From assembly GCA_947034885.2 (NCBI GenBank), contig OX344757.2, positions 5,704,001 to 5,768,000 of the forward strand: DNA of 64,000 nt. Direction: 5' to 3'. The translations under genes and the position numbers were made by a program. This document shows positions 5,076 to 30,675 of this stretch, in pieces. Each line of letters opens with the position of its first letter. The stretch's first letter is position 1. This stretch comes from Thuidium tamariscinum. Lineage: Eukaryota; Streptophyta; Bryopsida; Hypnales; Thuidiaceae. The notes under the pieces were generated by a model, which was not told where the DNA came from, did not search any database, and was given only the letters and a program-made list of their open reading frames with translations.

Positions 5076-5155
5076 CAGTCAGCCACTTCACGGTGGGTAA
5101 CAGGCAGTGCACAAAGCGAAAATGGCGAATGCGGGTGGGGGCGACTGCTTATGCA
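5076..5155 (-). promoter_or_regulatory. Conserved promoter block shared by several units
   Basis: The plus strand carries CAGCCAC, then GGTGGGTAA, then a GCGACTGC array unit. The same order recurs at 15321-15395 upstream of the kinase gene and, on the other strand, at 21528-21592 upstream of paralogue 2. It always lies on the gene-proximal side of the array. I infer a shared core-promoter or leader element. Confidence 0.55.
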
Positions 5156-5352
5156 CTCGAAGTCGCACAGGGGCGAGTGCGGGTACAAGGCGAGGCGACC
5201 TCGGGTAGTGGGCGACTTCGCGTGGGGCGACTGCGGGTCGGGCGGGAAGTTCGAACTCCCCTCCTCCAGCGACCACGCATGGGGCGACCGCGGGTCGGGC
5301 GGGAAGTTCAAACTTCCCTCCTCCAGCGACCGCGCGTGGGGCGACCGCGCCT
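5128..5352 (-). repeat. CG-dense array of GCGACCGCGGGT-like units, locus 1
   Basis: Irregular tandem units of GCGAC-NNCG-GGT spaced by short G-runs. A higher-order repeat of about 56 bp occurs twice (about 5228-5339), each carrying GCGGGAAGTTC. The coding strand of the adjacent gene reads ACCCGCGGTCGC. CpG density here contrasts sharply with the AT-rich surroundings. ORFs crossing it are by-products of the repeat. Confidence 0.75.
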
Positions 5353-5720
5353 CTTGGTAAGAAAATTCAGGGTTTTGAAATTGCCCCCAAAAATTATTTG
5401 GCCACCTAAAATTTTGGAGGCAGCTGGCTGGATCCACCGAAGAGTATTGAAGATATTGACATGTAAATGCCCAAATCATTTCTTAAATTGTTTGAGAAAA
5501 ATAGTTTTTGTTCAACAATAAACCAATCCTTTTATAAGCTTAAATTATCCATTCTTTTCTAAAAGTCATCCAACAAATTAAAAATAGACATGTCTTAGAC
5601 CAACTAGGAAAAACATAATACACGATATCTCTTATGGATTGATAGATTTAAATGTTTCATGATAGAAGTAAAATTGCCAAATGAACTTCTCTTCTTTTCA
5701 TCATGTTTTCCCAGGTCTAA
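5343..5720. repeat. Segmental duplication with 9560-9690, 10521-10640 and 11100-11290
   Basis: The distal flank of array 1 (AATTATTTGGCCACCTAAAA, then GGCTGGATCCA) matches the flank of the orphan array at 9560-9690. The next part (AACATAATACACGATATCTC and neighbours) matches 11100-11290. This shows that the whole upstream region of unit 1 was duplicated. The distal portion (about 5555-5930) is itself related to family B. Confidence 0.65.
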
Positions 5721-7942
5721 TCTAAAAAAGTAGTTAGTGGAAAAAAAGGCAGAGGGTTTCATATACATAATTCTAATCAATTTTTGCCTTCTCCGAATCT
5801 TCTATGTACAAATTATAGAAAATAAATTTTCAGTTCATTTTTCCTTAAGCCTTTAATGTAATTACAAGTCATCTCCATGATACCTACTTAAGGACTTAAA
5901 AAAGGCAAGATTGCAATAGACATCTTTACAGTAAATCTTCAACCCAAAAAACATAACCAATCATTTCTAGATCGGTATTGTGATGCTTAAACTAGACATC
6001 CTTTAGTAATTTTCTCATTAATATGAACTAGTAAAAATAGGAATTTCAATCAAATCTATTTTGCATTGCAATTGAGGAAAAATCAAATTTATGTGCCTCC
6101 GAATTCTACGGATTAAAAGAATGAGAAACACATTCATGCCGCATTCCCTCCCCTAATTAGTCTTCATGTAAATAAAAATCATGCCATGATGTTGTGGAGG
6201 GAAACATGAGAAAATATCCTTACCAATTCTTTGGGACCCCTTCACTAACGATGTTGGTCATTTATGTTGTGCTTAGTTGGATGGAATGTAAAATCAATAT
6301 TACTAATATATTCTTAATAATAAAATTTGAGAAATCCATATCAAATATAAATCTTGGTTCAAAAATCTAAAATTTCAAGAGTAGAAGCAAATTATAGTGT
6401 AGAAAATTACAAGGTAAATTAACTTTTGTACCACTCTATATTTTGAAATGTGCTTGTACATATTCAAATTCAAACTTCACTAATCTAAGGAGATCTTCTA
6501 TATTTTAGGGAATAGTAGAAACTAAATTTCATAAGCTTCATTTATTGGTTTTTGTCAAAATCAAAAGAAAGTTTTCAAATTGTCAAAATCAAGTCCCAAG
6601 AGAAAAAGAATTAAAAGTAATGAAATGCATTAGACAATGTACCATTTCTAGGGTTCAAAACAATCCCATATAAACTTATTTATTTTTAAATGTCTTGAAC
6701 TCAAATGAATAGTGTGGCTATAGCGCTCGTCAATGAAGTTACATTGAAAATATTGTGTGAAGATCATCCATTCTTCAATATATACAAAGTTCAGTTGATC
6801 ATTTGAAGGACAAAAAATGTCCTCAACATCCTTGAAGGATTAAAAATGTATTCAATACATGTAATATTTCTCATTCATACAAGTTTATAATAGGATCTTT
6901 TCAAATTTGCAACCATGTAAAGAAGTGAGGAGTTCTTCATTCTTTCTTCTTACAAGTATCTTTCTTTTAACCAATAGCAAAAAATAATCTTTACTAAGAT
7001 CATGAAGTTCTTTTACATCTATGGTCATGGATGAATGTTTGAAAATGGATGCAAATCCACCTTTTCATCTAAAGTACATAAATTTATCTCAAGTAGAGCC
7101 TTCATGTTTGGAAATTTAATAACAATGAACGCAATTCATCCCTTGGGAAAAAAAAGAATTTATCATGAAAGATTATCTTTCAAAAAATATTTTTTATTTT
7201 CTAGAAAAAGTGAGTACAAATGTACAATTAATCACTATAATTTCATAACTATACTTTACTAAAATCTTACTAAATGTCATCTTTGGAAACAAAGTGTAGT
7301 TTAAGTCTAAAATTCGATTTAGTCACCTACCTAACTATAAGATCTCAAAGTAGATAGTATAGAAATGTGTAAATGAAAATTGTAAACTTTGAGGTTAGCC
7401 AAGGTAAATTTTTTAAAGATTTGAGGTTTAATTCCTAAAGGGATCAAGGGTTCATTCAAATTTTGAAAATTATAATGATATACTATAAAATGAAATATAG
7501 GATAACAATTTAATCACATAATTCAATCAAAAGTGATTATCTACATAATATATCCCTATAGTTAGATAATTGGTACACTATCACTATGACAGTATGACTT
7601 ATTTTTCAATTAAATTTGAACCTTTAAAATCACTGTAAAATAAAGTACAAATAGAATAATTGTAAGTATCTTCTTACAAGAATTTTCTTTACGTTCAATA
7701 TAGTATGTTTAGATTGTAATTATTATTTATGATTTTTATTTTACTTATTTATTCACATCGTTTTGGAATGGTAATTTCTTGAATTCAAAAGTTTGTTCAC
7801 AATTTCAAACATACTTTATTTTCTTAAGTACAGAAGATTTGCAAGAGTATTTATGAAAATCTAAATTAAAAAAATGAAATAAAAACAACACAATAATCTA
7901 CAAGTGTTCTGATGTCTGCAGAAATGAAGAATTGTGTGTTTT
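5721..7942. other. AT-rich intergenic DNA
   Basis: No coding region, RNA gene or clean transposon ends seen. The open frame near 7035-7262 is A/T-rich with no recognisable motif. Confidence 0.5.
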
Positions 7943-7946
7943 TTAA

Positions 7947-8585
7947 CCCCTAAATGCCCATGGCACTCAAATGTGGTGTCAAAGAAACTTTGAAGTTCAT
8001 GAAAGCCTTACCAAAAATTTATTTTTAGTGGTTTATATTTTTGGAAGGCTTTTTTCAAAGTCTAGATTTACCATCAATAATCCAATTTTGAAAATGAATG
8101 ATTATGATTTTTCTATTCAAATTTTAATGCAAGGGTACCCATTGCAATCTTGACAATCCATAGTGTTAAAGACTCTTGGAAATGAGCCTCAAATACACTA
8201 GATCTTAGTGAAAAAAATCACACAAGAAATTCATTTCAAAAAATTTTAGACTACATTTTGAGAAGCCATAAATTGATTGTGGCTATGCTTCTTAGGCCCT
8301 AACACCTAGTATTGTTTTGGTGACCACCTTTTTAGATTTGACATGCAAAAAGAGAGCTCAAAGATTTTCAAACTTTCTACACCCTCATGATCAAACATTA
8401 CAATCTTTCAATCCAGAAGTGATATACTTGTGTTTTCTTTTTCTAGGTGATCTTTAACATGTCTACTTCAAATTTCTAAAGTTTCAATTAAAAGAAAATT
8501 TATTCAACTTATCAAGAATGTTGCATCTTGTTCCAATTTAGAGCAAATTCTAAGAAATTCAAAGTAAGCCTTAGGCATTCAGGGG
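7947..8585 (-). mobile_element. Family-B non-autonomous element flanked by TTAA
   Basis: The 639-bp element has ends CCCCTAAATGCC and GGCATTCAGGGG, with exact TTAA on both sides (7943-7946 and 8586-8589). There is no ORF of note. A second copy in the opposite orientation lies at 19654-21228. This copy is uninterrupted where the other carries a family-A insertion, so it serves as the empty site. I infer a piggyBac-like MITE. Confidence 0.78.
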
Positions 8586-8589
8586 TTAA

Positions 8590-8973
8590 ACACTTTTGTA
8601 TTCATTTGTTTATCACTACTTGAAGACATGGTCTCTTATAAGTTATGTCTTAATTGTACGGAGTTGGGAAAAAAATGATTCATGGCAAATAATTCAAAAA
8701 GGGTTAAATATTTTAATTTCAGGCCTTAGGATTTTAAATATTAAATTCCCCTTTTTGTTTGAATAAGATCAATACTCTTCAAATAATGAAAAGTCAAATC
8801 ATAATCTAGCACCTCCAAATAGGAACACAACCCTTTTGAGGTAGGCGAGTAATCCTGCCTAATTCTGCAAAAGGCTTGATGCCCCTGGTCTGAATGTACT
8901 GGTTCCTGTGCCAATGGAATTTTCTCCATTTGTTCAAAAAGAAAAAAAAATAGAAAAAATAAAGGCACGATCG
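8590..8973 (-). other. Possible leader remnant of a lost gene unit
   Basis: This is where the gene belonging to the 8974-9575 array would be expected. A short minus-strand frame (8741 to about 8930, beginning MEKIPLAQEP) is open, but I recognise no domain and no WCHIDKLF sequence. It is either a remnant or chance. Confidence 0.3.
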
Positions 8974-9575
8974 TGCCTCGAGCGACCGCGGGTCTTGGCG
9001 TGGAATTTCTAAACCCCCGATAATGGCACTGCGAACGCGCGCCCGCGAGTGGGCGACAGCGGGTTGGCGCGACAGCGCGTAGGGCGACCTCGGGTCCTAG
9101 CGCCATGTTCAAGTCCTTCGAATCCTGGCACACAGCGACCGCGGGTGGGGCGATAGCGGGTGGGCGACTGCGCGTGGTGGCGACTGCGGGTCGTGCGGGG
9201 AAGTTCAGAAGCCCCGATCTTGGCACTGCGACCGCGGGTGGGTGCGACCTCGCGTGGGGCAACCTCGGGTCCTTGCGGGAAGTTCAACACTCCGCGCTCA
9301 TGGAACACAACGACCGCGGGTGGGTGCGACATCGGGTGGGTGCGACCGCGCATAGGGGCGACCTCGGGTCCTTGCGGGAAGTTCAAAACTCCACTCTCAT
9401 GGAACACAACGACCGCGGGTGGGTGCGTCCGCAGGTGGATGCGACTTCGCATCGAGGCGACCTCGTGTCCTGGCGGGGATCCTGGGACACAGCGACCGCC
9501 CTTGGATGCGACCTCGGGTGGGCGACCACGGGTCCGACAATTAAAAAGCCTCCAGAAGAACAGCGACCGCACCTA
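8974..9575 (-). repeat. Orphan CG-dense GCGACCGCGGGT array
   Basis: The longest of the arrays, about 600 bp. It includes a repeat of about 110 bp present twice (about 9255-9480), each with GCGGGAAGTTCAA and a TCATGGAACACAACGACCG segment. Orientation matches arrays upstream of minus-strand genes. The distal flank matches unit 1 (9560-9690 with 5343-5462), yet no gene follows. Long ORFs on both strands are repeat artefacts. Confidence 0.75.
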
Positions 9576-9691
9576 CTGGTAAGGAAAGGAATTAATTTGA
9601 AATTCCCCCCTCCCCCCCCCCCAAATTATTTGGCCACCTAAAAATATGGAGGCAACCGGCTGGATCCAACCAAGATTATTGAAGGTATTAA

Positions 9692-10516
9692 CCCCTACCT
9701 ACCCAACCGACCATATATGGTCGATCTGAAATTAAAGGCCCATATCTGAATAGGCAGTTACATTCCTTGAACCTTAAAAAAAAATTAGACACTTTTAAGG
9801 GTTAACTATTGAGAACTTTCATTTTTCACTGTAAAAAGTATATATTTGATTATTGAGAGGTCTTCAAAGGCATACATGTGTCATAAGTGAAGTGTAAAGC
9901 TTGCCAATTTTACTTCATTTCCTAGATTTATGCAATTTCACTTGATTTGAGATCTAAGAAATAGTACATATCCATTTGCTTTGAGAATGGTTAGAATGAA
10001 AAGAAGAAAGTGTTTCCATGATTCAACATTGAAAATTTAATCATACAACTATTGACTTGGAGTTATTTCCAAATTCTACTTTAAAAAAATAATTGCATTT
10101 CAACAATTGCAAGGTGGATTGTCTAATGAATTCAATAGCTTTTCATGTGAAACTAATTTTTTTTTAAATGCATTTTAGTGTGCTAACACTCTTTGTAGTT
10201 AATTATGTCCCCTCCAACCTCCAACACAATTCATATGCAAATTTGAGAAACTTTGTGGGAAAGAGCAATATACAAAGTATAAAAGATGTACTACTCTCTT
10301 GTTATAATCTCACAACTCCTATGCAATTTTGTACTCAAAATTTGTGTACTTACTAATAAACAAGTTCTTTAAACATCCATGTGGTATAATTTGGGAAGAA
10401 AATCAGTTTGCTTCACTAGGGATGACTACAAGCTCATATATTTTTTTCATATTCAAAATACACTTGAAAAATATGAAAAAATAAATAAAAATTGAAAAGG
10501 CTTGGGCATTTAGGGG
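9692..10516. mobile_element. TTAA-type insertion in the duplicated unit flank
   Basis: The 825-bp insertion starts CCCCTACC after TTAA (9688-9691) and ends GGGCATTTAGGGG before TTAC (a mutated TTAA). The paralogous site near 5451-5470 reads straight through (TTGAAGATATTGACATG), so that is the empty site. The right end matches family B (GGGCATTTAGGGG). Confidence 0.68.
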
Positions 10517-10520
10517 TTAC

Positions 10521-13500
10521 CATGTAAATGTCCGGAGTATTTCTTTAATAGTTTTAGGAAAATAGTTATAATTGAACAATACACCAATCCTTTGGTAACC
10601 TTAATCCATTCATTAGAGCCTTAGAGGATTTTTGAGTTCTAAAGAGGGCCGCTAAGAGGTGTTTGGAAGGGTGCTTTTGTATTTAAATATTCTCCTTGAG
10701 GATGACTACTTCCCTATACGTGCTCATTGGAAAAGATTTTTTTCCAATGTGTACTTCCATGTGACAATAGCTTTCATTGGGTGGATCACGGAGACCATGA
10801 TGAAGCTTTGTCATTTAAAATTTGGGTTTAGGACATGAAGATGACACCAAACTATCCAATCAGGAACACTATTTTGTACAACCATTAAGATAATAATATA
10901 GTATTGTACATTGACTCCACTAGTGGATTTTCTTTTACAACCATCGATATAATGTTATACTATCCAAATTTAATATTTGGTAATAGTGCCTTGTTATTGT
11001 AGTCTCTACTTTTACTTCACACAATATTTCAACTACTAGTTTTTGTCTTCATTAAATAGGTGTGCATGTCTATCTCTAAGGGCCTTATATAGATTTCAAA
11101 AACCCTCTTATGCTTTGCTATAAGTCATCCAACAAATAAAAAGTAGACATGTCTTAGATCAAATAGGAAAAACATAATACACGATATCTCTTATGGATTG
11201 AAAGATATAAATGTTTCATGATGGAGGTGTTTCAAATTAGCAAATGAACTTTTCTTTTTTTCATCATGTTTTCCCAGGTCTAAGGACTTCCTTGTACCAA
11301 ATCTATATAAGTTAATGTTTTGAATTCAGTTTGAATATTGCCAAATAAAATGTGGTATTACATGATATCAACTAATCCATTTAAAAAATTAAAGATTTGA
11401 ACATATTTAAACCACTAAGCCAGATGAAAATAATCTATTGTGATGAAGTGCAATTGATATAATTAGTATCGCACTTGTGCTCATTAGCTTGTATAAAATT
11501 GATCCTCTTATAATATCTCGTTTTGTCAATTCCAATTTTTACAGAATATAAGATCTTTTTTAAACATACACCTAATTAGATTCTCCTTAAACATACACCG
11601 AATCGGATACTTTAAGTATATATAGAAAATTTTTATTTAAGAAATTCCTCTTCTAAATACACTAATTGCAAACATGACATGAAACTTTTGAGACTATTAA
11701 CACATTCACTGTAAGGAAAGATGGAATGGGATTGGTAGACTAGTATTACATTCCTAGTACAACCTATCTAATATCTACAAATTAGTGACGTGGTAATTAA
11801 CGACGAGACTAATTGATGATGCGACCACCAGACCAACTCACAAAATAACAACACTAATTAAGAGTTTTGGTTCAATAATGGAATATTAAAGGAGATACCC
11901 CAAGACCCAAGTCAATTTTTTTCTAATGCACACCTTTAATTTGTACCCTACAATATATTTAAAAACACCCTATATCATTTTCTATATATTGTAGTATATA
12001 AAATTTTAAAATCAAATTGTAATTTTTATCAAAATGATTATTTGGCATCCTACATTTGTTCATACATATATAGCTACTTCTTCCACTCACTGTAGCCCTT
12101 GAGATTGAATAGTCTTACAAATATTAAATCATTGCATGTATTTGTTGTTCATCACTTACACTTCTTTGCAACAAACTTTAGAGCCGCTCTTGTTTGTTGG
12201 AATCAATGGACTGGTAATTTGGAAAAAAATCATTTTAATATTAACAATCTTTCTATGAATCTCCCTATGACCCTATTCTTATTTTAATTCAACAAAATTT
12301 GAAAACATCACACCACAATTGGAGATGCAGCATCCAAAAAATAAAATAAAAGTTGTTCCCTAAAGGGTTATAAGGGTCTATGCATGTATACCATTCTAAC
12401 ATTTGTTTAAAGCAAAAATTGAAAAAAGTCATCTACCAAGGATGAAATAATATTAGCTGAAAATGACTCAAATATACTTCTAATTTAAAATTAGTAGCCT
12501 TATTGAAGTCTATAAATTCCTATACAATTGAAGTTTGTAATTCAAGTACATTTTTCAACAATAGACATAAATAAAAAGTGATGTGAAGTCTTTGTATTCT
12601 GTTTTCAGAAGTAAAATTTGAAAAGTTGGTGACCAAAGAAATATGAGGTTAAAGGGCTTAACATGCATGATTCCAATCAATTTATGCCTTTTCAAAATCT
12701 AATCTACAATTTGTTTAAATGAATTTTGAACGTGCATTTTTCTCCTAAATTGAGCATATAAGCGTATTTGAGGCTCATTTTCAAAAACTCTCAACACTAC
12801 GTAAAGTGAAGAATGTAATGGGTAGTTGATTAACCTTGCACAAAATCTTGAATAGAAAAATCACTGTCAATCATTTTCTAAATTGGATTGTTGACATTAA
12901 AATAAGACTTCTTAGAAGACTTTCCAAAAAATAAGAACCACTAAAAATAACAACTTTGTTAGTTTTAATTTAACTTCAAAATTATGCAAACACCAAAGTT
13001 AGGTGCCTTGGGCATTTAGTAATTTATTGATTAAAGACTTATAAGAGACTTCCACGACCTACTAGTACATTGGTAGAAGAGGATTTCTTCCATAATTCAA
13101 TGAACATTAGAAAGTGAAATAGTTGTGTGAGGTGAATATTTTGTTTAGAAGTCTCTTAAAAGAAATCAAAATTGATATTGTCTACGAAAATGTGGCATAG
13201 AAAATCAATTGTTTGAATAATTCAGTGGACACAAAAGTATATTCATTATTTCAGTGAAAGATTTGACTTTGATGATTTGATTTTCAAATTTTTGTATCAA
13301 ATCGTAAATGACAAATGCAATCAATGCTACATCATTTACTATCTTAAACTACAAATATTACTTGGTTAATTCTTACCACAAAATAATTTGATAGCCCGCA
13401 TGTCTAATACTCAATAACTCAAATTACATATGAATTTCAAACATTTGGAAATTCATCCAAGTAATCAAATATTTTTTCATTCAACTTTCAATATGTTTGA

Positions 13501-13648
13501 TTTAGTAGTGTGAACACATTGTTCATAGTACAAAATATTTTTATATATACATATATCCTATTACAAAATGAAAGGCACACAACGTGGCCATCAACTTCCT
13601 TGTACTAAAATACTCTCTACTAAATCATACTCACTCACACACTCACTA
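10521..13648. other. AT-rich intergenic DNA with repeat fragments
   Basis: 10521-10640 and 11100-11290 continue the duplication of 5462-5720, split by about 460 bp of unrelated DNA. About 12595-13025 is a diverged forward family-B copy ending TTGGGCATTTAGTAA. No gene is supported; the frames at 10168 and 12099 lack any family signal. Confidence 0.55.
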
Positions 13649-15229
13649 CTACAAAGGTGAGTCACGAAAAACTAATTCGGGGGGTTTCATGCACCATGGA
13701 GGCCCCATGAGCAAACTTACCACCTCCGTACACGTTGGTCTGTCCTTTGGATCTTTTCTAGTCAATTGATCCAACTTCAAGGCAAAGTACCTACATGCAT
13801 CTCGATTTTTGAAGATGTCTTCATCAAAGTTGCCAGTCCACTCAATCTTCATGCTTTCTGCCAATTTTCCAATAGAATATGAATCCAATTGCACTGTATA
13901 TCGATGCGTTGCTTGCATAATGGATAGGCTTGTATCGGAATTTTGTGGCCCAAATGTGTAGAACAACTCTGGAGCCACCCACCAACGCCCTAGTTGTTGT
14001 CTCTCCATCTCTTCATTGGTACGGTATCCATAGTGCGATGGGGCTTTCTCATCCATATGACTTGCAATTCCCCAATCACAAATACCGATGTTGATGATCT
14101 CGTTGGAATAATCAGGAAAATGCAACAATATATTCCTTGGAGACAAGTCGTTGTGCAACACCAATGACTGATGCATAAGATGAGTCACGTACACAAGAGC
14201 CCATGCTAATTTGGCCTTGTGCCTTCGAAAAAGGCTGACTTCTTTTTGTTTCTCCTCAGGCAATTGTCTGATCTGATTCACCTTGTGCCATTCCACGGTT
14301 GGTGACACCTTCTTGTTCAAATCGAGCAATTCATCCAAATGACCTCCATTCCACCATAGAGTATACGCCTCCATGGTTTTCGAATTCATGGCACAAAACT
14401 TTATTATGCCAGCATGATTTAGGGGACATACCAAGGCTTCTACGGATCATTCCACCCTTGCATCGTGCAAGTTCTTGATTTTTGGCATTTTCCCAGCTAA
14501 AGTGATATATTCAGGGAACGTATCCAACCCTAAAATACGCACTTTGCGCACCTTGCCATGCCCACCTTCACGACAGAATCCACTAAGGGGCTCCACCTTT
14601 GCTGAAGGTGGTATCCAAGTAATACATAGTCCACCATCTTTTGCAAATGCAGCCTTCACAGCATCGTTTTTCCACTTGAAACCCCTTGATCCAGACTTTG
14701 ATAATTTCTTCACAACTGTTTGCCACCATTCCATCTTCTCACGAAACTCCTTTGCTTCATCATCTAGTGGTTGCCCTGCCACTTGTGGTCGAAGATCACT
14801 CATCAATCTCTTGGTATTAAAAATTATAGACTGAACAGTGTCGGTAAGCCAATGTTGAAGGCTTGAATTGTATGTCAAATCCATATCTTTGAAATCATCA
14901 GATTCATAGCACTTGCTTAAAATCCTAGCCTCCAAATCATCCACCAATTTTAGAGCACCTATCGAGGGATCTCTGAAATAGCTTGCCTCCAGAAATTGCA
15001 CACTTTTTCTTGCATACCATTGTAAGGACACCTCATATGCAAACTTTGTATAACTTGGAGGTGGGTACGTCGGGTCCTTCTCATTAGCTGTCCTAGGCTT
15101 CTTTGGCTTGGTTTCGGTTGCACTCCCAGTTGTCACGCCTGTAGCTATAGGGACTTCAAAATGCTTAGGATCATCTAGATCCCAAATTGACCTCCGCCTC
15201 GTGCTAGTGCCTTCACGTGGATTGGACAT
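13649..15229 (-). pseudogene. Divergent protein-kinase-like gene interrupted by one TGA
   Basis: The frame runs 527 codons from the ATG at 15229, broken only by TGA at 14449-14447. The first half has a Ser/Arg-rich start, an alpha-helical middle, then a kinase glycine loop (GGHGKVRKV) and an AGK motif where the ATP-binding lysine belongs. Past the stop come helix C and the hinge, the catalytic loop HNDLSPRNIL (Asp and Asn kept), DWG in place of DFG, VAPEL, DSYSIGKLAES and KDPKDRPT. The catalytic residues therefore survive, so the protein may once have been active. The TGA lies between subdomains III and IV, at a place compatible with a former tryptophan TGG. Upstream lie the same promoter block and array as the WCHIDKLF genes. 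TAG, TAG and TGA follow in tandem at the end of the frame. Confidence 0.72.
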
Positions 15230-15320
15230 GGTGCTCCTTCAAAGAAATAACACCAACTTCTAATTTCGTAGGAGAAAAATGCAAAAAGTCCGCCCTCAAG
15301 AAAATAAACCTGGACCAACG

Positions 15321-15395
15321 GGCACGCATTCAGCCACTCAGAGGTGGGTGAAAGACAGTGCGCATGGCCAAGAGTGGCGACTGCGGGTAATGGAG
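15321..15395 (-). promoter_or_regulatory. Conserved promoter block, kinase unit
   Basis: The sequence carries CAGCCAC, GGTGGGTGA and GAGTGGCGACTGCGGGTA in the same order and position as the block upstream of WCHIDKLF paralogues 1 and 2. The downstream protein is unrelated to those paralogues, so the regulatory module is shared across families. Confidence 0.58.
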
Positions 15396-15650
15396 AACGC
15401 TTAAGTATCGAACAGCGGGTGTGAGGCGACCACGGATCGAGAGGGGCGACTGCGGGTCGGCATGGAGGCGACTGCGGGTAGGTTTAGGGCGACCGCGGCT
15501 CTGTGGAGGGGCGACAGCGGGTAGGTGGAGGGCGACCGCGGATCTGTGGAGGGGCGACCGCGGATAGGGGGGGGGGCGACCGCGCCTCTTCTGGGCCGAC
15601 CGCGCCTTTGGGGGCGACCGTGTCTCTTGGGGCGACCGCGTCTGGGCTTC
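15373..15650 (-). repeat. CG-dense array of GCGACCGCGGGT-like units, kinase locus
   Basis: About a dozen units (GCGACTGCGGGT, GCGACCGCGGAT and similar) sit in the same orientation relative to the gene as at the other loci. It lies between the kinase gene (minus) and an open frame on the plus strand beginning near 15816, so it could act in both directions. Confidence 0.72.
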
Positions 15651-16589: not shown

Positions 16590-17482
16590 TTACACCTTGT
16601 GACCATCTCGTCCCACCTCAAGGTTGTAACGCTTCACCTTGTACAATCCATCATAGGAATAGATTTTGTTCCATCCAACGTCCACATCATGGCCCCTAAT
16701 CAAACGAACAACTTCCCCACGTTTGTAGGAGTTAATAAGCGCTTTATTCCCTTTCTTGGGCTTTTGATCCTCTAATTGCCACTTCTCACCTCTGTAATCG
16801 TTTCCACCCTGGCCAGTGTATTTGACTATCTCCCCATGGTCATCATCATTTTGGTAACCACCTGAGATCACCATGCTGCAAGCCACCTTCTCCCCTCGAT
16901 CTTCAACCCATGCAATCCCTCCTTGCACTTGCCGGTGCAACCCAACGGCAAACATTTCGGACCAAATTCAAATTGATCACCGACTACGATTCCGGGAACG
17001 TGACCAAACTTTTGAAACTCATTAGATTTTCCTTCTTCATTCATTTGCTTCATTGCCTGCAAGTCAGGCCGATTACCAAGCAACTGACCCCTCGTCTTGA
17101 GTTTTTGATAATGCTGTAAGATCCGGGAGTACAGAGTACACCGCTGCAAAAATTGATCCCTGACACTGACCTGGTTAAAATCTCTTGGTAGTTCTCCATC
17201 TACCTCATAAGCTCCCGCTCCATTAGGGTCTGAAGTTGCCTCTCCCTCAAGAGTTCCCGCTAGTTGTGGCCTTGTGGGGTTCTTCGTGACTTTCCTCGGC
17301 AATCTCACACAACCCTCGGAAAAATCTCGCGTGGCAATAGGACCGTCGCCATCTATATGGAACAAGGCTAGACGGACTGAAGCAATGGATTGAGCTGGCT
17401 TTTTTGGCTTTTTATTTTTTTGACTTCGAAAACAAAAAATCATCAATTTTTTTTTCTCTTGAGTAGTAGGGAAATGAAACAT
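16590..17482 (-). pseudogene. SUVH-like SRA-domain gene with a one-base deletion and no SET domain
   Basis: The SRA (YDG) domain of plant SUVH histone H3K9 methyltransferases binds methylated cytosine. Here the N-terminal helical part (RDQFLQR, NRPDLQAM) runs into GHVPGIVVGDQFEF; then the frame shifts near 16958. The next frame continues with VGLHRQVQGGIAW, VISGGYQNDDDHGE, YTGQGG and IYSYDGLYKVKRY. The spacing between the two parts is 17 bases where a multiple of three is expected, consistent with loss of one base. The reading ends at TAA just after the SRA domain; the pre-SET, SET and post-SET domains are absent. The start is uncertain; the first in-frame ATG is at 17482. It could be the remnant of a full SUVH gene or of an SRA-only derivative. 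Confidence 0.78.
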
Positions 17483-19649: not shown

Positions 19650-19653
19650 TTAA

Positions 19654-21228
19654 CCCCTCAATGACTAAAGCTTGTTTCGAACTTCTTAGAATTTGCTCTA
19701 AATTGGAACAAGATACAACATTCTTCATAATTTGAATAAATTTTCTTTTTAACACCTAAAGCCTTCAACTGCGTTTTTTTCGCAAAATAGCAATTTTGGG
19801 TAGCTCACTACGAATGGAGTTTGTTTGTTTTTCTTCAAAATTTTCACAAAACATGTGTCCGAGCAGTAGCTTCAAGGCCCAACAATTTTTATAACTTTAG
19901 ACCACACAGTTAAAGAGTTATGGCATGATATGTTTTTTTGCTTGAAATGCGGGCAGCCTAGGTAGCAAAATAAACTTCTTGAAAATTAATTTTATCTAAA
20001 ATAAAAATTTTGAATATGGTGTACTATGTTTTTTCCTATGTAGAAAGCTTTGATTTGATCCATTTTGATAAATGAGTCAAAAGTAATGAGGAATTTTAGT
20101 TTTGGCTAGTTTGTGGGTAAATATAAAATCTTTATTCTACAAAGAAGTTGAAGTTTTGTATTTAATTCAATTTTTAATATTTTTGGAAAAAAACTAAAAC
20201 ATTGGGTGAAGATTGTTTATTACAATATTTCAACAATTGGGATTGACATTTTTAATTTTTGAAATAAATAGTTCACAATTTAATATTTTCAAGCATTTCC
20301 TACTTCTTTCTACTAACTATTTTTTTCATATGTGTTATACAATTCCAAATGATTTGAATTTTTTTTAACATATAGCCAACTTGAATTTTAAAATGAATTC
20401 ACAGAGTGACCATCATTTTGAGTATTTTTTCATACAAATGTTACCTTGTGCAGAGCATAATCCCTGTTTTTTTGCAGGGTTAAAAAAAAGATTTTTGCTA
20501 CTTCAAAGGTTAATGTCTTGCAGTCTACATGGTGGAAATTTCTGAATGTTTTTGCGTATCTTTTCCAACCACCTAACTACAAGAGCCCACGGTGGAATAT
20601 GTCAAAAACCTTTTTTTTCAAAAAAATTGCACTCGTATTAGAAATTACAGTTCTAGAGTGATTTTGGTGGAAACATAGTCAAAAACCTTTAGGGGTTAAT
20701 TGAAACTTTAGAAATTTGAAGTAGACATGTTAAAGATCACATAGAAAAAGAAAACACAAGTATATCACTTATGGATTGAAAGATTGTAATGTTTGATCAT
20801 GAGGGTGTAGAAACTATGAAAATCTTTGAGCTTTCTTTTTGCATGTCAAATCTAAAAAGGTGGTCACCAAAAAAATACTAGGTGTAGGGGCCTAACAAGC
20901 ATAATCACAATCAATTTATGGCTTCTCAAAATGTACTCTATAATTTTTTTAAATGAATTTCTTGTGTGAGTTTTTCACTAAGATCTAGTGTATTTCTAGG
21001 AGTCTTTAATACTATGGAAAGTCAAGATTGCAATGGATACCCTTGAACTAATTTTTGAATAGAAAAATCATAATCATTCATTTTCAAAATTGGATTATTG
21101 ATGGTAAAACTAGACTTCGAAAAAAGCCTTCCAAAAACATAAACCACTGAAAATGAACTTTTGGTAAGGTTTTCATGAACTTCAAAGTGTCTTTGACACC
21201 ACATTAGGGTGCCTTGGGCATTTAGGGG
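19654..21228 (+). mobile_element. Family-B element carrying a nested family-A element
   Basis: The left end follows TTAA (19650-19653) and starts CCCCTCAATGACTAAAG. The right end is GGGCATTTAGGGG, followed by a degraded target site (TATG). The sequence matches 7947-8585 in reverse complement, except for the internal insertion at 19753-20695. Confidence 0.72.
19753..20695. mobile_element. Family-A element inserted into a family-B copy
   Basis: The 943-bp insert begins CACCTAAAGCC and ends CCTTTAGGGG, with exact TTAA on both sides (19749-19752 and 20696-20699). The other family-B copy reads TTTTCTTTTAATTGAAAC (complement, about 8477-8500) with a single TTAA, which is the unoccupied site. This directly shows TTAA duplication on insertion. 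Confidence 0.82.
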
Positions 21229-21255
21229 TATGATAAAAGTAAGAAAGCCACGAAG

Positions 21256-21540
21256 GCCAGAGCCGAGGTCGCCAGTCTTTTGGGACCCGAAGTCGCCCTC
21301 TCTTCTAGGACCCACGGTCGCTACTTCTTTTGGACCCGCAGTCGCCCTCCCTTGCAGGACCCGCGGTCGCCACTGCTGAGCTCGCCTGCTCTTCCAGGAC
21401 CCGCGGTCGCCAGTCCCGCGGTCGCCCCTCGTGGTTGTACCCGCGGTCGCCTCTCAGGTGGACCTGCACTCGCCCCTACCCGCACGCGCCCCTAAGCGAC
21501 TGCGGGTATATACCGCAGTTGCCTTACCCGCAGTCGCCAC
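21256..21540 (+). repeat. CG-dense array of ACCCGCGGTCGC-like units, locus 2
   Basis: The array is reversed relative to the other loci, exactly as expected because the gene it precedes is on the plus strand. Units such as ACCCGCGGTCGCC recur with short spacers. The surrounding DNA is AT-rich. Confidence 0.75.
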
Positions 21541-21592
21541 TCCTTCTCAGCGCATTGAGAATCACCCACCTAGACGTGGCTGATTGCATGCC
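21528..21592 (+). promoter_or_regulatory. Conserved promoter block, paralogue 2
   Basis: Read on the minus strand this is CAGCCAC, GGTGGGTGA, GCGC, GAGTGGCGACTGCGGGTA, closely matching 15321-15395. It lies between array and gene. Nearby, at 21690-21770, TGTAAATGTGAA-like words occur three times. Confidence 0.55.
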
Positions 21593-21875
21593 CATGAGTT
21601 AGGAGTTTTGGTTCGTTTTGAACTTTTGGTCTTCCGTATTGCTCTGTTCGCCCACACTACATCACCAGTACTATAGAAGATTGATTTTTTGTAAATGTAA
21701 ACATTTTTGTAAATGTGAATAGTTTAAGGTACATCTTTTGTAATGGAAAGACTTCTGTAAATGTGAAGTACAACGATTCTAGGATTTTACACTTTTATAG
21801 TACTAGCTTAGTCTTACAGTCTTAGAAGTTTAGAGAAAGTACATAGTTCAGCATTCTACGTACAGATTGATCATT

Positions 21876-23390
21876 ATGGATGCCCAGCCTCCACCTGCCC
21901 TAAGTAAACTAGCACTTGCATTGAAGAAGAAGGAGGTTCGTGACAAGAGTCGTAAGAGGGGTGGAAAAAGTCGCAAGAAGCGTGTGCCTTTGCTTTTGCA
22001 TCCAAAGATAAAGGCTTTTTTAGGCTGGAGAGCAGAACCTGAGCCTTGGAGTTACGAAACGGTAAACAAATACGTGGATTGGTGCCACATTGATAAGTTG
22101 TTTCCGCTATGGCATCACAAGATACACTTGGCGCAAAACAAGGCAAATCTTGGATATTGCACCAACGAGGCTTTCAAGCAAAGATGTCTAGCTGTATGGA
22201 CGAGGTTGTATGATGAGCCTAAGCCTTATCGAAATGACAATTTCGCTTTGTATCTTGTCCAAATGGTATATGCTGAATGCATACTCAAGAAGAACGTGGA
22301 CTGGAGTACCTTGAACAGGCACCCCATCGGAGATCGTCCTGAAGAAACATCGATTGTGAATGAAGTTGCATTAGCAGATGTCAAGAACACACTAATGCCT
22401 GTGAAATTGGGAAGGCTGGCCGTTTCTAATGCCGAAATTGCGTGGTCGCCAAATTCTAGCTCAGATGAGCATACCCACGAATATGATGGATATGATTTCC
22501 AAAGCGACACTGAAGATGATGTTATGGAAGAAGGAAAGGTGACCTTGGAAGTGGAAATTGCCAACAAGGGAAAAGAGAAGGTTGAAGAATTTGTAGTTGG
22601 TGAAAATATCCACAATGAAGGCACACAACGTATACAGGCAGTACAACCTATGGAAGTAGACCACAATGTTTTGGTGGGTCATTGCGGTGGAAGTGGAAGC
22701 GACTTTGAAGACGATGTAGATGTATTGTTCGCTAAAATACAAAGTGCAATTTCTGGTTTGCAAGAAACAAAGGGGGAAATTGAAGCTCTCCAAAAAATAT
22801 GAAACTATCGTTTATCAACTTCATCAGATGCAGCTACAGTACATGGGTTGAGAGAAGAGTTGAAGATATTACAAAACGGCATCTCGGAAAACGACTCGCG
22901 CTTTGCTACTTTGAAGAGAAGCAGAGATAATTACTGGAAAAAGAAAGCAGAGGGTCGTTTGTATCCAATGGATGAGTGTGCTGTTCTTCAACAGAAAATG
23001 AAGATTTTGGAACCTGAACGTGGGCGGGTGCAGAATGAAAGGAGAGGGGTCAATTTGCAAGTAGATGCAAAAGAAAGAGAGTACTACAATGCTGCAATCC
23101 AATGTGCCTCGACATTAGATGTCTCAGCTATAGCTCTTGAATATGGCAACACACCAGAAGAGTTATCAACACTTCTAAAGCTTGTTAAACTGCACGAACA
23201 AAAAACTCTTGTCTTACAACAAGAGTCGTCAAAATTGCAGTCAGAAATCCGTTTTGAGAGTGCATGGCGGCATTGGAACCTACGTACTACAGCTAAAGGC
23301 GCTAAACGTGTAGATATACAGAAGATGGGGCCAGAACCCAAAGAGAGTGATTTTTTTGAGCAATAGAGGAAGCACCTATTAAACTACTAA
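21876..23390 (+). pseudogene. WCHIDKLF-domain coiled-coil protein, paralogue 2 (frame broken by TGA and TAG)
   Basis: The function is unknown. I chose the ATG at 21876 (MDAQPPP) because it parallels the MDAM start of paralogue 1. A Lys/Arg-rich stretch is followed by the shared domain (WCHIDKLF, NKANLGYC, QRC, MVYAE, VDWSTL), then acidic sequence (SDTEDDV, DFEDDVDVLF). An in-frame TGA lies at 22800-22802. The same frame continues for 187 more codons of coiled coil to TAG at 23364-23366, and seven codons later TAA at 23388. The coiled-coil part aligns with that of paralogue 1 (a Leu-Asp start, then TPEEL against TPLEVEEL, and a Trp-rich end). The stop falls at the same domain boundary as in paralogue 1, but at a different codon, so the stops arose independently or the boundary matters. 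Confidence 0.7.
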
Positions 23391-24649
23391 AAAAACCCTT
23401 CTTGGCGGTTTTTGGTTGTAGCCTTGTAGGCCTACTTTTTGAGATGTCACTTCCTTCAAATGAATAGAAAATATTAAGTTTTGTCATTTCAATGTGCATG
23501 AGTCTTTTGTAAAGATGTGGAAAAATTGTTGAATACCAAGGTTGTGCGCTATTTCCAACTTCAAAGAATGGATGATTTCAATTTCCTATAATAGTTAGAA
23601 ATTTGAAACAAAATGTTTATAATAAAGTGAAGATATATTTTAAATTATAAACATTGTGTAACACACTAAAGCACCCATAAGCAAACTTGAATGTTTATAA
23701 TAATTATTGTTTCACCAATGGACATCATGAATTGGAATTAAAAATTTCTACAAGAATGTTGTACCATCATATGACAGCGAAAGTGCTACTCCTTATTATT
23801 CACAATTTCACATGTAAATTCTATTTCTATGGTACTTCACTATAAATTGCGGAAGTTAAAAGTTTGAAATTCATTTTCAAAGTGAGAGAACAAAACAAGA
23901 GTTTTAATGGGCTCATAGAGTATAGTATTTTAAAATATGAGTAAGCACTCACAATTTAATATCATCGACTAATTCTGGTATGAGAATGGAAAGAGATGTG
24001 GGCAAATACCTTAAACCTTTGAACCATTTGTTGCATCTGGTTTCTTTTTTGGGGAGTAGTGGAGTACTGTAAAATTATTAAAATAATTTTGAATAAAAAA
24101 AAAAATATGACTATTGTAAACACCTTGAAGATGAATAAAAACATGAAAGGATATTTGTTAAGGAAATCTCTAAGTAGGAGAATTTGAGAAGTACCAAACC
24201 TCATGGAAATATATGTCTCATTGTTCTAATTAGTAAAATATAGAAAATTAAATTTATAAAAAAACAACTTTTTTATAATTTTCAAAAACTTTATGGAGGT
24301 GGTTATTCATTAATATAATCACCAAAATCATTTTTCACATGTTTCCCAAAAGACATAGAAGGAGGTTCGCTGTATGGACTTGTACACCACTACATCACAT
24401 AAAAATAATTTATCCTAAATTCCTTCTCTATATAGCTACAAGTCTACTAGAAGACCATTTTATCCAAATTTGAGCTCAAAATCATTAAAAAAGGGACTCA
24501 ATAGTACTGAAAACCTCCAAAATGGCATTTTGGACTTTTGGTTCGGGTCTATTTTGAAATAGTGAAATATTTTTAAAAGTAATTTAAAAATTAGACAAAT
24601 TGTATAATAGTGATGAGCACGTTCTCTAAAATTTTTGCGCCATTTAAAA
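23391..24649. other. AT-rich intergenic DNA
   Basis: No gene supported. About 24290-24535 matches 62165-62400 inside the element at 61863-62594 (shared TATTAGAAGACCAT-like and AGTACTGAAAACCTCCAAA tracks), so it is an older copy of that family without recognisable ends. Confidence 0.5.
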
Positions 24650-24653
24650 TTAA

Positions 24654-25182
24654 CCCTTTAGGGCCTAAGGAGCCCCAAGCAACCTCTTGAATTCTTCTAG
24701 AATCAAATTTTCATATTAAAATTTTATAATTTAATTTAAATTATTATTTTTCTACAAATAATAATTCATATCTTCTATCTAATGTGATTTTTAATTTATA
24801 TTTGGGAAAAAAATGAAATTTATATGATTCTTTAAAGTTTATACCTTTGAAAAATCATAGTAATTACAAAAAAGCTCAATTTCCCATGAAATTTTTATTG
24901 AAAATAGAATTCATTATATTGAACACTATAGTAAAGTTGGCATGCTCTCTTTAGTTATATACAAATAAATTCAATAGAGAAATATGTTCCATAGTGCATT
25001 TTGAAACTCTAAGATTTCCAACTTTAGGTTGCAATAGACAAATCATCATTGCTCCAAATTTGATGGCCAATGGCTCATTGGAAGCGGAATACCCGTTCCC
25101 TCACATCTAAGGCCAATAGAGTGTTCGAATTCCCAAAATTCAATTTAAAAGAACCAAAATTGGCATGCTAGGCCCTAAAGGG
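24654..25182. mobile_element. Family-C TTAA element with perfect inverted ends
   Basis: The 529-bp element has ends CCCTTTAGGGCCTA and TAGGCCCTAAAGGG, perfect inverted repeats, flanked by TTAA (24650-24653 and 25183-25186). There is no ORF. The interior differs from families A and B. It may sit inside an older copy of the 61.9-kb family. Confidence 0.8.
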
Positions 25183-25186
25183 TTAA

Positions 25187-27697
25187 AACACAAAAGTAAT
25201 CGCCAAGGGATAGATCATCACATGCCAAATGAGACAAAATAGCAAATGAATTTATTGCATCCACCTTTGTTTAATTTTCTTAATCTTGTCAAATGTAGTG
25301 TTCATAAAATTCAAAATAGTTCTTATTATTTATTGAAAGTCATTCAATTTTAATATTACAAGAAATCTAAATTCATTTTACATGTTATTTTCTTAAACTA
25401 GTATTGGAAGTTGAAACTTTTGTTGGAAAATCGTATTTCGGTAATTCCTAAACTCTTCCCTTATAAGGTTCTATCATTATCTAATAAGACCTTGAGCACC
25501 CTTCCTTTCGATTATTACATTAAAACATTTTATGTCCCCCTTCAAAAAAATTTAAATATTTAAGATATGGTTTTAAATTATCTTCAAAAGGTTAAATGTG
25601 CAAAACCTTTGTTGGCCGCTTGACTAGGTGTATTGCAAAATGAAAATGACTTAATGTCAAATTTCCAATCTATTTTTATACTCAAGATACTCCCAATTTT
25701 TTTGTAGTTGACCATTTGTCCATTAATTTAAAAAAATGTTAAAACTTTAAAGAGAATTTATTAGCAATAAATATTTTTTTCTAAAAAATACAAAATCAAA
25801 AAGTTTTCTCATGAACCATGAATGTCTAAAATTTTGTGATTGATAGAAGATGCAACTTGGTCCTTTAGGGATTAAAACGGATAAAATTTTCTTATGTAGA
25901 TTATACTTGAACCCTAACCGTAAATTGAAAAATGAAAATCCATTATCAAGTGACTGAAGTGAGCACATTTTTTTAATATTTTAATATGATGATTTTATAA
26001 CAAATTTAGAATAATTGTTACATTTTTTTGGTTTCTAAAATCAATAAATTGTTGCATAATTATGTCCAAATTCTTGTGACTCAATAATTAGAATATATTA
26101 ATATTTATGTAATTATATTTGTAAAATTCTCATGGTTAAACATTTCTCCACAATAATTTATTCTTCACTTCATATGTCTTAAATTTTTTTTAATGTACAA
26201 CAATCTTTGAACAACAATTTCAGAAAATTATACGATTCTATAAGCGGTGTATACTAATGTTCCTACTTGTTGCCAGTCTAAATCTAGACATTTCCATCTC
26301 CGGAACAATTAGGAAGTGGAAGTAAATAAGTAACCTTTGTTTATTAGATTTCTATTTATGTCGAAAGCTTGGAATCATTCCATTTCAAACCCGCAAAAGT
26401 TATGATGAATTGTAGTTTGGGGTAGTTTGTGGGTAGATATCGAATTTGTATACTATAGATTATAAAAAAAGGTTGAAATGATTTACTTAATTCAATTTTT
26501 AATATTTTTGAAGAAATAAATCAATTATTGGATGAAGATTGTTTACAGTTTATAACTATATTTGAAGGTGTAGCCATGTACGATTAGCATTTTTCATTTT
26601 TAAAAAGAAATCATTCACACTATAGTATATTCAAGCATTTTCTACTTCTCTCTACTAACTACTAAGTACTAACTATTTTTTCTCTCTATGTTTTACTATC
26701 CCAAACGATTTCAAATGTTTTGAATATATAGTCAATTTGCATTGGAAAATGAATTCAAAGACTTACCATCATCTTCAGTATTTTTTCATACAAATGTGAC
26801 CTTACCAAGAACATTAGCTCAAATTTTAAGAGGAATAAAAAAAGATTTTTGGTAGTTCAAATATTCAAATCTTGTAATGTACACGGTGAAAATTTCTGAA
26901 TTTTTGTCCACATATTTTCAAGCCACCTAAGTAGAACATCCTATAGTGAAGTATTTGAAAAAATCTTGGACCTACTTTTACTTTATAATTTTTCAATCTT
27001 GGACATATTTTTATTTTATATTTTTGTAAAGAAAGAAAAACAAGCATTCTTTTTTGGGAATTCTTTTATTAGACTTTCTACTCAATTCTTAAATACATAC
27101 AAATTTAAATTTAAAGTCCATAGTAGAAAAAAATTCAGCAAATGGCAGTCAAAGTCATTTGGAATTGTAAGAATGCAGGATAGTGTTTAAGAAGACTATG
27201 TTTTCCAACTTTCAATGCTTAAATCTTCTAATGTATACGGTCAAACTTCATGAAATTTTGACCACATGATCTCAGACAAACAAAATACAAGATCGTACGG
27301 TTAAATTTTATAAAAATACATTTTTTTGGTATTTTGGATAAATGCAACCAAAATGGTAGTTCTTAGTGGTTCTTGATGGAAAAATGGCCATGGGCCTTTA
27401 AGAGTAAACAAAATCCATGACAATGATATTTTTTATGGAAACAAGGAAACTAGGAAAGAATATAGTTTTCTTGTAGAAAGGCAAAGGTGGTTTATATTAA
27501 AAATATAAGCAATATGAAATTGCTTTATATTAACAAAAAGCAAAGTTGTAGAATCAAATTCTCCAAAGCAAATTCTATTGATCCACAATGCAAGTGAGGA
27601 GTATTCACTATGGATATCATATAAGTGCGTACTATGGGCCTTTTGCTATTTATACCATTACAAAAGTGAAGTTCATGTCACAAAATAGTGCTAATAT
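25187..27697. other. AT-rich DNA with a degraded family-A copy
   Basis: About 26360-27400 matches family A in two parts: the middle resembles 20050-20600 and the right part resembles 2610-2910 (ACTTCATGAAATTT, CCACATGATCTCAGACAA). The ends are decayed. No gene supported. Confidence 0.6.
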
Positions 27698-30181
27698 TTA
27701 GGTGACAACATGTGCATTATCTTGGGCACCACTTGCCTCACCATGCTCATAATTGGATGATTCCTCAACGTCAAGCTTACGCTTCGCACGAGTACGAGAA
27801 GCTGGACCATCTGCACTCAAAATGGACTCTAAAACATTGGAATCCTTCAAAGCTTCAAGGGTCCTTGCAGTTTGTGGAGAGTGCTATTCCAATAGAAAGT
27901 CGAGGGCTTGACTTGTGTAATATGGCCCATATGTAGAGTCAAGGTACGCCATACTAGTTAAGTCTTCAAGAGAGGCGTTTGAGTCTTGGTTGGCGACTCT
28001 ATTCCCTTCTAAATCCCAACGATGTTTCAGTGGGTGAGGGCCCCACTTGAAGGTTGCAGAGGTCTTATCAAAATATCCACCGAGACATTGAAAAAAAAAT
28101 GCCCTCCTCCCCTCGTTACATGGGCCTGCTCCCATGAGCCGAGGTGCAACTCGAAGAATTTCATCAGGATCAGTTTCCCAATTCAACTGAGAGCTAGCAG
28201 GTCCTTTTTCTTGATCATGTTGGCCTTCACGCCAGCTCCACAGCAAATCTCGCCCCCAAAATCTTGTATCCATAGTTGTTTCACCATTGTGTTCCCAAGA
28301 AGGTGGCATGTATGTCATTAGGTTGAACATAGCATACAAACAATCATGAAATGGTGCCGAACAAATCACGCAACGTCGCCTTATTAGGCATTGCACAATG
28401 AGACATTGAGGATGGTAAACGTGCGTGCATGATCCCAATGCCTACCCTCTTTCAGGGCCAAAGGATTCCAAACAGATAGGACATTTTGTATGGTCCAAAA
28501 CAAAGGTTGCTGGCTTTGGCCACAGAAGTTGTCGTTCTTTCTCATCCAAGTGGCACGACATCTGTTTTTGGTAGTCCCAACCAAGTTGTGCCCAATTGAT
28601 TCCTCCATTTTCTGCGTTCACCATGGGTAGGTTCTCAGGAAACATGTCCTCCAACAATGGCCACAATGTCATTCCATTCTCACGTTTTGGGGCCTTTGCA
28701 ACGAAGTTCTTCGCAACTTTGTCCAATTCTTGAGCTATTTGTTGTGATCTATCCACGGTGAGAATACAAGCAACTTTCCAATGATAGTATGTGGCTGCCA
28801 ATTGAGCCAACTGTGCTCGCAGTATGTTGTTTTCTTCTCGAAGATCCAATTTCTTTGTTGAAGATAAGAGATGCGTAGGCGCAGGAAATGAAAGAGAATC
28901 TTGGGTTTCCTCGACATCGTTGGGGTCGACAGTATGTTTTTCCATGATGGTAGGAAGAAACGTGGTTGGAATAATTGAAGAACGCTTTGTACGCTTAGCA
29001 ACAGGTGGAGAACAATGGAGGAGACCGCTAGTGACATCTGCCACAACCTTGTCCAAATGATGTGGATCCTGTTCAATAAAGCCATCATCCATATTCGACA
29101 AAGTGATCGTCTCACGTTCTTTTTGTCGAAGGCGTTGAAGATCTTTGGACTACTGTAAAAGAAGAGTGTTTTTATGGTCCAAATCAGACTGCAATTTCTT
29201 CAGGTCCAATTGCATTGAAGCGATTGTGGCGTCTTTGGTCTTCAAGAGGTCCAGAGCCTCAGATAGAGCCATAGTTGAATTTTCTTGAGATGGAGGAATG
29301 TGAATAGAAACATTCGGGGAAACTTCCACGGGGGGATCATCAGCCGCACCAAACTCGAAGACATTGATTGTGTTACCAGTTGGCAACGGGCGCGTGGGAA
29401 GTGTTGTTGAGTTTGATGAAGGTCCGATTTGAATGGTCGAACGTCGAATCTTGGTAGGACGTTTTGGTCTCGATCCTCGTGATGCAGAAGCCCCCTCAAC
29501 ATTCGGAACTTGCACTTGAATGGGAGTGACAATTTGTTGCTTGACTCGCTCTTTTCTTGGAGGTCGTGTGCCATCAGAGTCATTGTCCTCTTCAGATTCT
29601 TCAGTTTCAAGTTCTGTTACCTTGTTCTGAGGATCACTTCGAATTGGTCCAAGTCCACCTTCTGGAAATTTCAATACCCCTCTTGGTATTAATCCAGTCT
29701 CTGGACGTTCCACGTAGGTAGTTTCTTTGATAGTGGACCAATCCACTTCTTTCTTCAAAACAAGCTCAGCATATGCTCCTCGGGCAATGAAAAGAGTCAC
29801 CTCATTCCTCTCTACAAAAGGGGTTTTGTAGAGGACTTGCCACAATTCGATGCACCTTTGAACGTAAGGTGCATTTTCACAATACTTCAAGTTCGCTTTG
29901 TTGGTGTGTCGATTGAAATGATGACGCCATGGTGGAAACAACTTATCAATGTGACACCATTCAATGTATTCTTCACAAGTCTGCATCGTCCATGGTTCTT
30001 CTTCCTCATCCCACCCTTTAAAAGCAGGATGCTTTGGATTTCTCAGCACATGCCATCGCTTTCTATGAGTGTTGCCTCTACGCTTACGACCCTTGTCGAT
30101 GACAGCCTTCCTGACCGCACGAGGGGCGCGTGTGTTGGTCGAAACCGGGAGTGGCACAAGATTGTTGCCTTCGGAAGCCAT
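27698..30181 (-). pseudogene. WCHIDKLF-domain RING-H2 protein, paralogue 3 (frame broken by three TAG codons)
   Basis: The ATG at 30181 (MASEGNN) opens an 828-codon frame ending in TAA at 27698. It is interrupted by TAG at 29152, 28444 and 27886 but has no frameshift. In order: a basic start; the shared domain (WCHIDKLFPPW, NKANLKYC, QRC, VDWSTI); acidic and Pro/Ser-rich linkers; coiled coil; a segment with ENGGINWAQLGWDY; then a RING-H2 finger (CPIC, CTHVYHPQC, CVIC) that would bind two zincs and is typical of E3 ubiquitin ligases. A C-terminal region rich in Trp follows, with a late basic motif (RAKRKLD). The second TAG falls inside the RING, between the second and third zinc ligands, at a place where TGG would fit. 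The 61 codons past the last TAG are still protein-like, so the gene was intact recently or the stops are decoded. Confidence 0.75.
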
Positions 30182-30317
30182 GGGATTTGTTGCAATCGAT
30201 AACAAGGAATCACGAAAACGTAGCCGAATAGAGAAAATAGTCAATATTCATCCAAAGGTTAATGCATGCAGCCAATGAAGGTTGCAAGACGAGAAGCCTC
30301 GATGGAGAATGAAGGTA

Positions 30318-30675
30318 ACATGAGGGGGCGACTGCATTTATAGGTGGTGCGACCACGGGTACAGGGCGAATGCCGATGTCGGAGGCAGGCGACCGCGGGT
30401 CTGGTAGGGCAACCTCAGGTCGCGGTGGGGCGACTGCGGGTCTCAGTAGGGCGACTGCAGGTCGCGGTAGGGCGACTACGGGTCGCGGTAGGGCGACTGC
30501 GGGTATGTTGGAGGCAACCACGGGTAGGAAGAGGTGACTTCGGGTCGTCCCTGTGCAAAGCGCGGTCGCCCTCCACGTGCGGTCACCTTCTCCCACTGTC
30601 GCCCTCCATGCGCGGTCGCCCCCATGCGCGGTCGTCCCCACGCGCGGTCGCCTTCGCTGGACCCGCATGCGCCTC
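30318..30675 (-). repeat. CG-dense array with inverted halves, locus 3
   Basis: From 30318 to about 30535 units read GCGACTGCGGGT on the plus strand, as at other loci upstream of minus-strand genes. From about 30560 to 30665 they flip to GCGGTCGCC. The array is thus partly palindromic, unlike the others. The conserved CAGCCAC block is not clear here. Confidence 0.7.

Follow-up and report, generated by a model that had tools for sequence, protein, structure and literature searches.

A shared CpG-dense upstream module, probably constrained, in front of non-homologous genes in a plant-like genome

Promoters of the CpG-island type are GC-rich, retain CpG within CpG-depleted DNA and lie beside gene starts, and plants maintain DNA methylation in CG and CAG/CTG contexts. 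Within a window of 64 kb, which is the whole stretch of DNA analysed here, five CpG-dense arrays built of the 13-bp core GGCGACNGCGGGT are found, four of them upstream of apparently intronless ORFs encoding either one of three paralogues of a family designated WCHIDKLF (g1, g2 and g3) or a protein kinase. The arrays are like CpG-island promoters in being GC-rich and in keeping CpG against a CpG-depleted background, and in this window four of the five are positioned at gene starts. They differ in that they are composed of tandem 13-bp cores, are accompanied by a separate dyad block and belong to a plant-like genome. A second system for comparison is provided by CACTA (En/Spm) transposons, whose subterminal motifs of 12 bp in En-1 and 17-20 bp in Tgm1 are bound by TNPA-like proteins (PMC2613891). 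The likeness is that a short conserved motif is repeated many times close to a gene start, with some of the copies inverted, and the difference is that the arrays described here are one-sided instead of marking both ends, with no CACTA-type ends and duplication around a module. Plant SUVH-type SRA genes are represented in the window by a decayed SUVH-like ORF (16590-17482, minus strand), which is split between two frames, apparently intronless and possibly a retrocopy. Its SRA domain (16590-16967, E 1.2e-33) finds its best matches among solved structures in plant SUVH9, 4, 5 and 6, and this ORF is a neighbour only, without an upstream array and not part of the module. Together with the depletion of CG and CAG/CTG in the AT-rich DNA between genes, this SRA match gives the window the look of nuclear DNA from a plant. 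The module is not described in the titles or abstract beginnings that were searched, which is no claim that a description does not exist.

Arrays and dyad block at the gene starts

Scanning the window for the core with up to three mismatches gave 94 sites, 75 of which lie inside five short intervals that were drawn around the arrays, these 75 cores having been selected because they match. The remaining 19 sites all carry three mismatches and are somewhat many, since ten Markov shuffles yielded only 4-11 sites per window. Nine such scattered sites without an array fall at 36200-42450, above the whole-window shuffle expectation, and perhaps reflect only a higher GC content. The array upstream of g1 (5127..5356, plus strand, 10 cores) has a 57-bp higher-order unit and one core in the opposite orientation, and a single opposite core is also present in the array upstream of g2 (21264..21546, minus strand, 13 cores). 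The array upstream of the kinase (15376..15645, plus strand) contains 12 cores, and the fifth array (8982..9576, plus strand), which has neither a block nor a gene, contains 21. The array upstream of g3 (30327..30696, plus strand, 19 cores) is partly inverted, with 11 cores on the plus strand (30327-30545) followed by 8 inverted ones (30558-30696). The repeat period varies from array to array between about 15 and 99 bp. No further core cluster was found in the scan of the whole window, hence its other long ORFs are without an array. In a collection of viral contigs the array pattern matched one contig (L001), in a stretch of 69% GC with a tandem repeat of its own, and this match was taken as chance.

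The ORFs behind the arrays are g1 (3522..4949, minus strand, start at 4949), the kinase (13649..15229, minus strand, start at 15229), g2 (21876..23366, plus strand, start at 21876) and g3 (27698..30181, minus strand, start at 30181). A sequence-only reading had placed a CG-dense array upstream of all three WCHIDKLF genes and of the kinase gene, and this was borne out, as the gene-side edge of the array lies 146-330 bp from the start codon at each of the four loci. Using a limit of 350 bp 5' of an ORF start, which was set after seeing the data, four of the five arrays qualify, and none of 200,000 random placements reached four with seven ORF starts allowed in the simulation. The kinase is recognised by Pfam Pkinase (E 3.7e-12) from the portion that follows its in-frame stop. 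BLASTP detects no homology between it and the WCHIDKLF proteins (best E 0.84), again as had been claimed, and the evidence thus supports a shared, position-fixed upstream module before non-homologous genes. At g1, the kinase and g2 the order is array, 44-bp dyad block, variable leader and ATG, and blastn between these three upstream regions gave 71.3% over 115, 73.6% over 91 and 77.5% over 71 positions, so that the shared homology is longer than single motifs.

The dyad blocks are located at 5072..5115 for g1 (plus strand), 15323..15366 for the kinase (plus strand) and 21547..21590 for g2 (minus strand), in a constant orientation relative to the gene, as anticipated. Over 44 ungapped positions g1 and the kinase share 33 identical bases, g1 and g2 share 30, and the kinase and g2 also share 30, to be compared with 22-26 for the best match of the kinase block in six shuffles and 24-25 for the best matches of the three blocks elsewhere in the window. 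The motif by which the block had been defined, CAGCCAC...GGTGGGTGA, is exact at the kinase and g2 only (15331, plus; 21582, minus; none expected in the window), and the block of g1 reads CAGCCAC N5 GGTGGGTAA, with GGTGGGTAA in place of GGTGGGTGA. Among the three blocks 27 of the 44 columns are invariant, and the invariant runs TCAGCCAC and GGTGGGT flank five columns, none of which is invariant; in sequence terms, the block is an inverted repeat of GTGG-type half-sites. When tested formally, clustering of the invariant columns is marginal and weak (permutation values of 0.04 and 0.06). Folding as single-stranded DNA supports the dyad for g2 and the kinase, whose blocks were matched by 1 and 2 shuffles out of 200, respectively, but not for g1 and g3, where folding is unexceptional (25/200 and 30/200).

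The statement that paralogue 3 lacks the block holds for the whole block, but g3 may keep half of one at 30261..30275 (plus strand; ATGCANNCAGCCA), which agrees at 11 of 14 positions and is only suggestive, because 71 of 5000 shuffles of the g3 interval score as well. Elsewhere in the window nine sites equal or exceed this score, three of them being the real blocks and one falling within the gene-less array on the other strand, and the 44-base search of the window found no full block at that array. The block would be either constrained or copied later, and constraint fits better, since conserved islands alternate with variable gaps. The 30 of 44 bases shared by the g1 and g2 blocks can be set against the paralogues themselves, whose WCHIDKLF parts are 36-44% identical and whose fourfold third positions agree at 7/19, 7/23 and 6/25 in the three comparisons, which places their synonymous sites, as judged from these counts, near saturation.

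Conservation of the cores and retention of CpG

Because selecting whole cores introduces a bias, the arrays were also aligned on one short anchor at a time, either GCGAC, which has 62 sites in the five arrays, or CGGGT, which has 40. With the first anchor, core columns 9, 10 and 13 show one base in 90, 87 and 96% of sites and columns 7, 8, 11 and 12 in 61-70%, and the linker beyond drops to 0-0.5 bit; with the second, columns 2-6 show one base in 87-95% and the linkers on either side carry at most 0.4 bit. Thus, the cores stay conserved while the linkers drift, as is also seen in the repeat periods, which differ among the arrays. The kinase array has an 18-bp distal unit, GGGGCGACCGCGCCTCTT, in common with g1 (E 5e-5), and any distal similarity of the remaining pairs stays at chance level (E 0.2 or more).

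The observed/expected ratio of CG is 1.08 in the arrays versus 0.28 in five intergenic stretches located between 1 and 27.6 kb of the window, and for CAG/CTG the corresponding values are 0.86 and 0.38. The AT-rich intergenic DNA around the modules is accordingly depleted of both contexts, and from this depletion it looks long methylated in the manner of plants, although CAG/CTG depletion is milder in the intergenic DNA at 47-51.5 and 57.5-62.5 kb (0.77). Substitutions affect 17 of 300 CpG base slots in the 75 cores, 15 being transitions, as compared with 96 of 600 non-CpG slots; the other steady positions (2, 5, 6 and 13) are changed in 20 of 300 cases and positions 1, 8, 11 and 12 in 76 of 300. 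The cores show no excess of CpG decay, and their CpGs are no steadier than other steady positions. Because CpG decay is unexceptional and the CG ratio of the arrays so far exceeds that of intergenic DNA, the arrays would seem to escape methylation, to be selected or to be young, of which youth is not favoured, since the linkers have diverged.

Unlike the arrayed region, the stretch at 31000-45600 is not depleted of CAG/CTG (1.23) and is strongly skewed in GC, at about -0.3 between 32 and 37 kb, and it may be a less methylated, transcribed stretch. Next to it lies a near-perfect (96%) palindrome of 439 bp (45658-46096), with a related copy at 62904-63125. No Rfam family reached its gathering score in the window, and all seven matches returned at the E-value threshold for 31000-46500, below that score and of the miRNA-hairpin type, fall at 45817-45937 inside the palindrome.

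The alternative that fares best is a neutral GC-rich minisatellite, amplified by slippage, homogenised by conversion and brought close to genes by local segmental duplication, with the block as an old flank. Array-specific periods, a gene-less and a partly inverted array, and CpG slots no steadier than other steady positions are all in keeping with such an origin. However, a neutral repeat does not readily explain why four of five arrays sit at starts, why linkers diverged and cores did not, why CpG decay is not in excess despite a CpG-drained region, or why the same block precedes non-homologous genes, and we regard it as unlikely. Conservation in the cores but not in the linkers, a block that is more alike than saturated synonymous sites, and a depletion of CG and CAG/CTG that affects the surroundings but spares the arrays all speak for an upstream regulatory module under constraint, in preference to a repeat that arose by chance or was copied recently. 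The shared module itself is real and probably constrained, and a promoter function is inferred to be likely.

Duplication of the module and evidence on mobility

No gene was recovered at the fifth array, as tblastn with the gene pieces of the window (E up to 1) returned only the pieces themselves and the three paralogues. The distal flank of this array (9563..11283, plus strand) duplicates that of the g1 array (5341..5720, plus strand) in collinear order, with 97/130, 76/98 and 154/174 identical bases in successive pieces. It is interrupted by insertions, one of which has ends TAACCCCTA/TAGGGGTTA; the insertion at 9689-10519 resembles, in the kind of its ends, a dispersed element that ends in GGGCATTTAGGGGTTA. 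Because of this collinearity, the gene-less array evidently arose by local duplication of the g1 upstream region. The proposal that the module is mobile or duplicated is hence upheld directly, for one case, as regards duplication; mobility is not supported, because neither a second array nor convincing element ends are found around a module.

Another alternative is that the arrays are CACTA (En/Spm)-like subterminal repeats at the ends of a gene-carrying DNA transposon with a promoter inside the element end. The repetition of a short conserved motif beside a gene start, with copies partly in both orientations, agrees with this, and the TNPA-bound subterminal motifs of CACTA elements (PMC2613891) offer a parallel. 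A Transposase_24 match at 38719-40044 points the same way, below cut-off (E 0.005, 17.4 bits against 28.7), as does an inverted pair of dispersed repeats of about 91% identity (7946-8491 and 20696-21229, within element copies 7944-8588 and 19651-21231) lying around the gene-less array, the kinase locus and the SRA ORF. However, a scan of 3.5-4.6 kb on the 3' side of each of the four genes found no second array, only two isolated three-mismatch sites. CACT(A/G)CA occurs near three of the five modules and its inverted form once in an exact search, and pairing is conceivable only between 25294 and either 21655 or 24388; in these pairs 8-9 leading bases agree, the outer trinucleotides differ and the g2 array is left outside. 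That search, which covered exact copies of the motif and of its inverted form at the five modules, found no CACTA termini with a 3-bp target-site duplication around a module. Nine pieces of the four genes, excluding the last 61 g3 codons, gave no transposase match in Pfam up to E 0.1. The inverted pair, moreover, encloses about 11-12 kb and several units together, and the family of its element, which is the one ending in GGGCATTTAGGGGTTA, has further copies, so that the pair is not specific to one module, though a composite move of the enclosed stretch is possible. One 70% stretch is common to the 3' flanks of g1 and g3 and is part of a repeat that recurs at 46.6-47.3 kb. Overall, an origin as transposon ends is rather improbable. 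A recombination platform, in which the array serves as a homology tract for exchanging coding sequences downstream of one upstream region, would suit the constant orientation of the same module before unrelated ORFs, the end of visible homology near the gene side of the block and the one local duplication, but diverged linkers leave short homology tracts except between the g1 and gene-less arrays, and no mosaic genes are seen in the window, which makes it very improbable.

Probable decay of the four genes and the proposed role of the module

All four ORFs are interrupted by in-frame stops, namely TAG at 4161-4163 in g1, TGA at 14447-14449 in the kinase, TGA at 22800-22802 in g2, and TAG at 29150-29152, 28442-28444 and 27884-27886 in g3, the last being followed by 61 open codons up to a TAA, although this last TAG may be the true gene end. 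An alternative code or read-through was considered as the source of these stops, since four TAG, two TGA and no TAA without a visible frameshift make an odd set, and introns or recoding are other conceivable sources. The simplest reading would nevertheless be that the four genes are decaying by methylation-linked C-to-T change, because such change in CG/CHG contexts gives TAG and TGA and because the region is depleted of CG and CAG/CTG. Homology between g1 and g2 is not detectable beyond the stop (BLASTP E 27), hence it is the open frame and the codon-position composition that argue for a single gene continuing past the stop. With in-frame stops in all four ORFs, functional co-expression appears doubtful, and the earlier suggestion of a working co-expressed set is weakened.

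AlphaFold2 with three rows modelled the WCHIDKLF domain at a mean pLDDT of 58.3, too low for a fold search, and a PDB profile search with four rows gave nothing convincing (best E 0.26). In g3, a RING-like Cys/His pattern is read by eye, for which Pfam zf-rbx1 gives only E 0.037, below cut-off. Searches of viral, bacterial and archaeal collections with the WCHIDKLF alignment confirmed none of 88 pattern matches in viral contigs and none of 257 in genome contigs, and the kinase piece had no pattern match in viral contigs; given the collections searched, this lack of relatives says little for a plant genome.

The reading that we prefer, held tentatively and at slightly under an even chance, takes the module for an upstream regulatory region of CpG-island-like character, shared by genes of a plant-like genome that are old and apparently intronless. 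The array would act as a multi-site landing place for a sequence-specific protein that binds GC-rich DNA and keeps the region unmethylated and open. The dyad, with its inverted GTGG-type half-sites, five variable bases and a fixed G, would bind a dimeric factor near the transcription start, which may lie immediately to the gene side of the block, at the limit of visible homology. Old promoter capture or, alternatively, segmental duplication with replacement of the downstream gene is the probable way in which the kinase and WCHIDKLF families acquired the module in common, and transposition of the module probably is not. The gene-less fifth array counts against this promoter-module reading, as do the g3 block, which is at best a half, the partly inverted g3 array, the in-frame stops of all four ORFs, the marginal clustering of invariant block columns, the unexceptional folding of the g1 and g3 dyads and the 19 core sites outside the arrays. 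Co-expression would follow only if the four genes are still transcribed, which the in-frame stops make uncertain.

A further-reaching version, which we consider unlikely as it stands, is that of an anti-silencing module, in which the cores recruit a plant DNA-binding protein and carve unmethylated islands in CG/CHG-methylated heterochromatin, such that genes landing behind them join a regulon. If this holds, unrelated lineage-specific genes would gain one shared expression programme, and a regulon could be read from sequence as one GC-rich module before non-homologous genes. The 13-bp core would then be a bait for a protein that protects DNA from plant-type methylation, and the ways in which new intronless genes acquire and retain promoters within heterochromatin would become open to testing.
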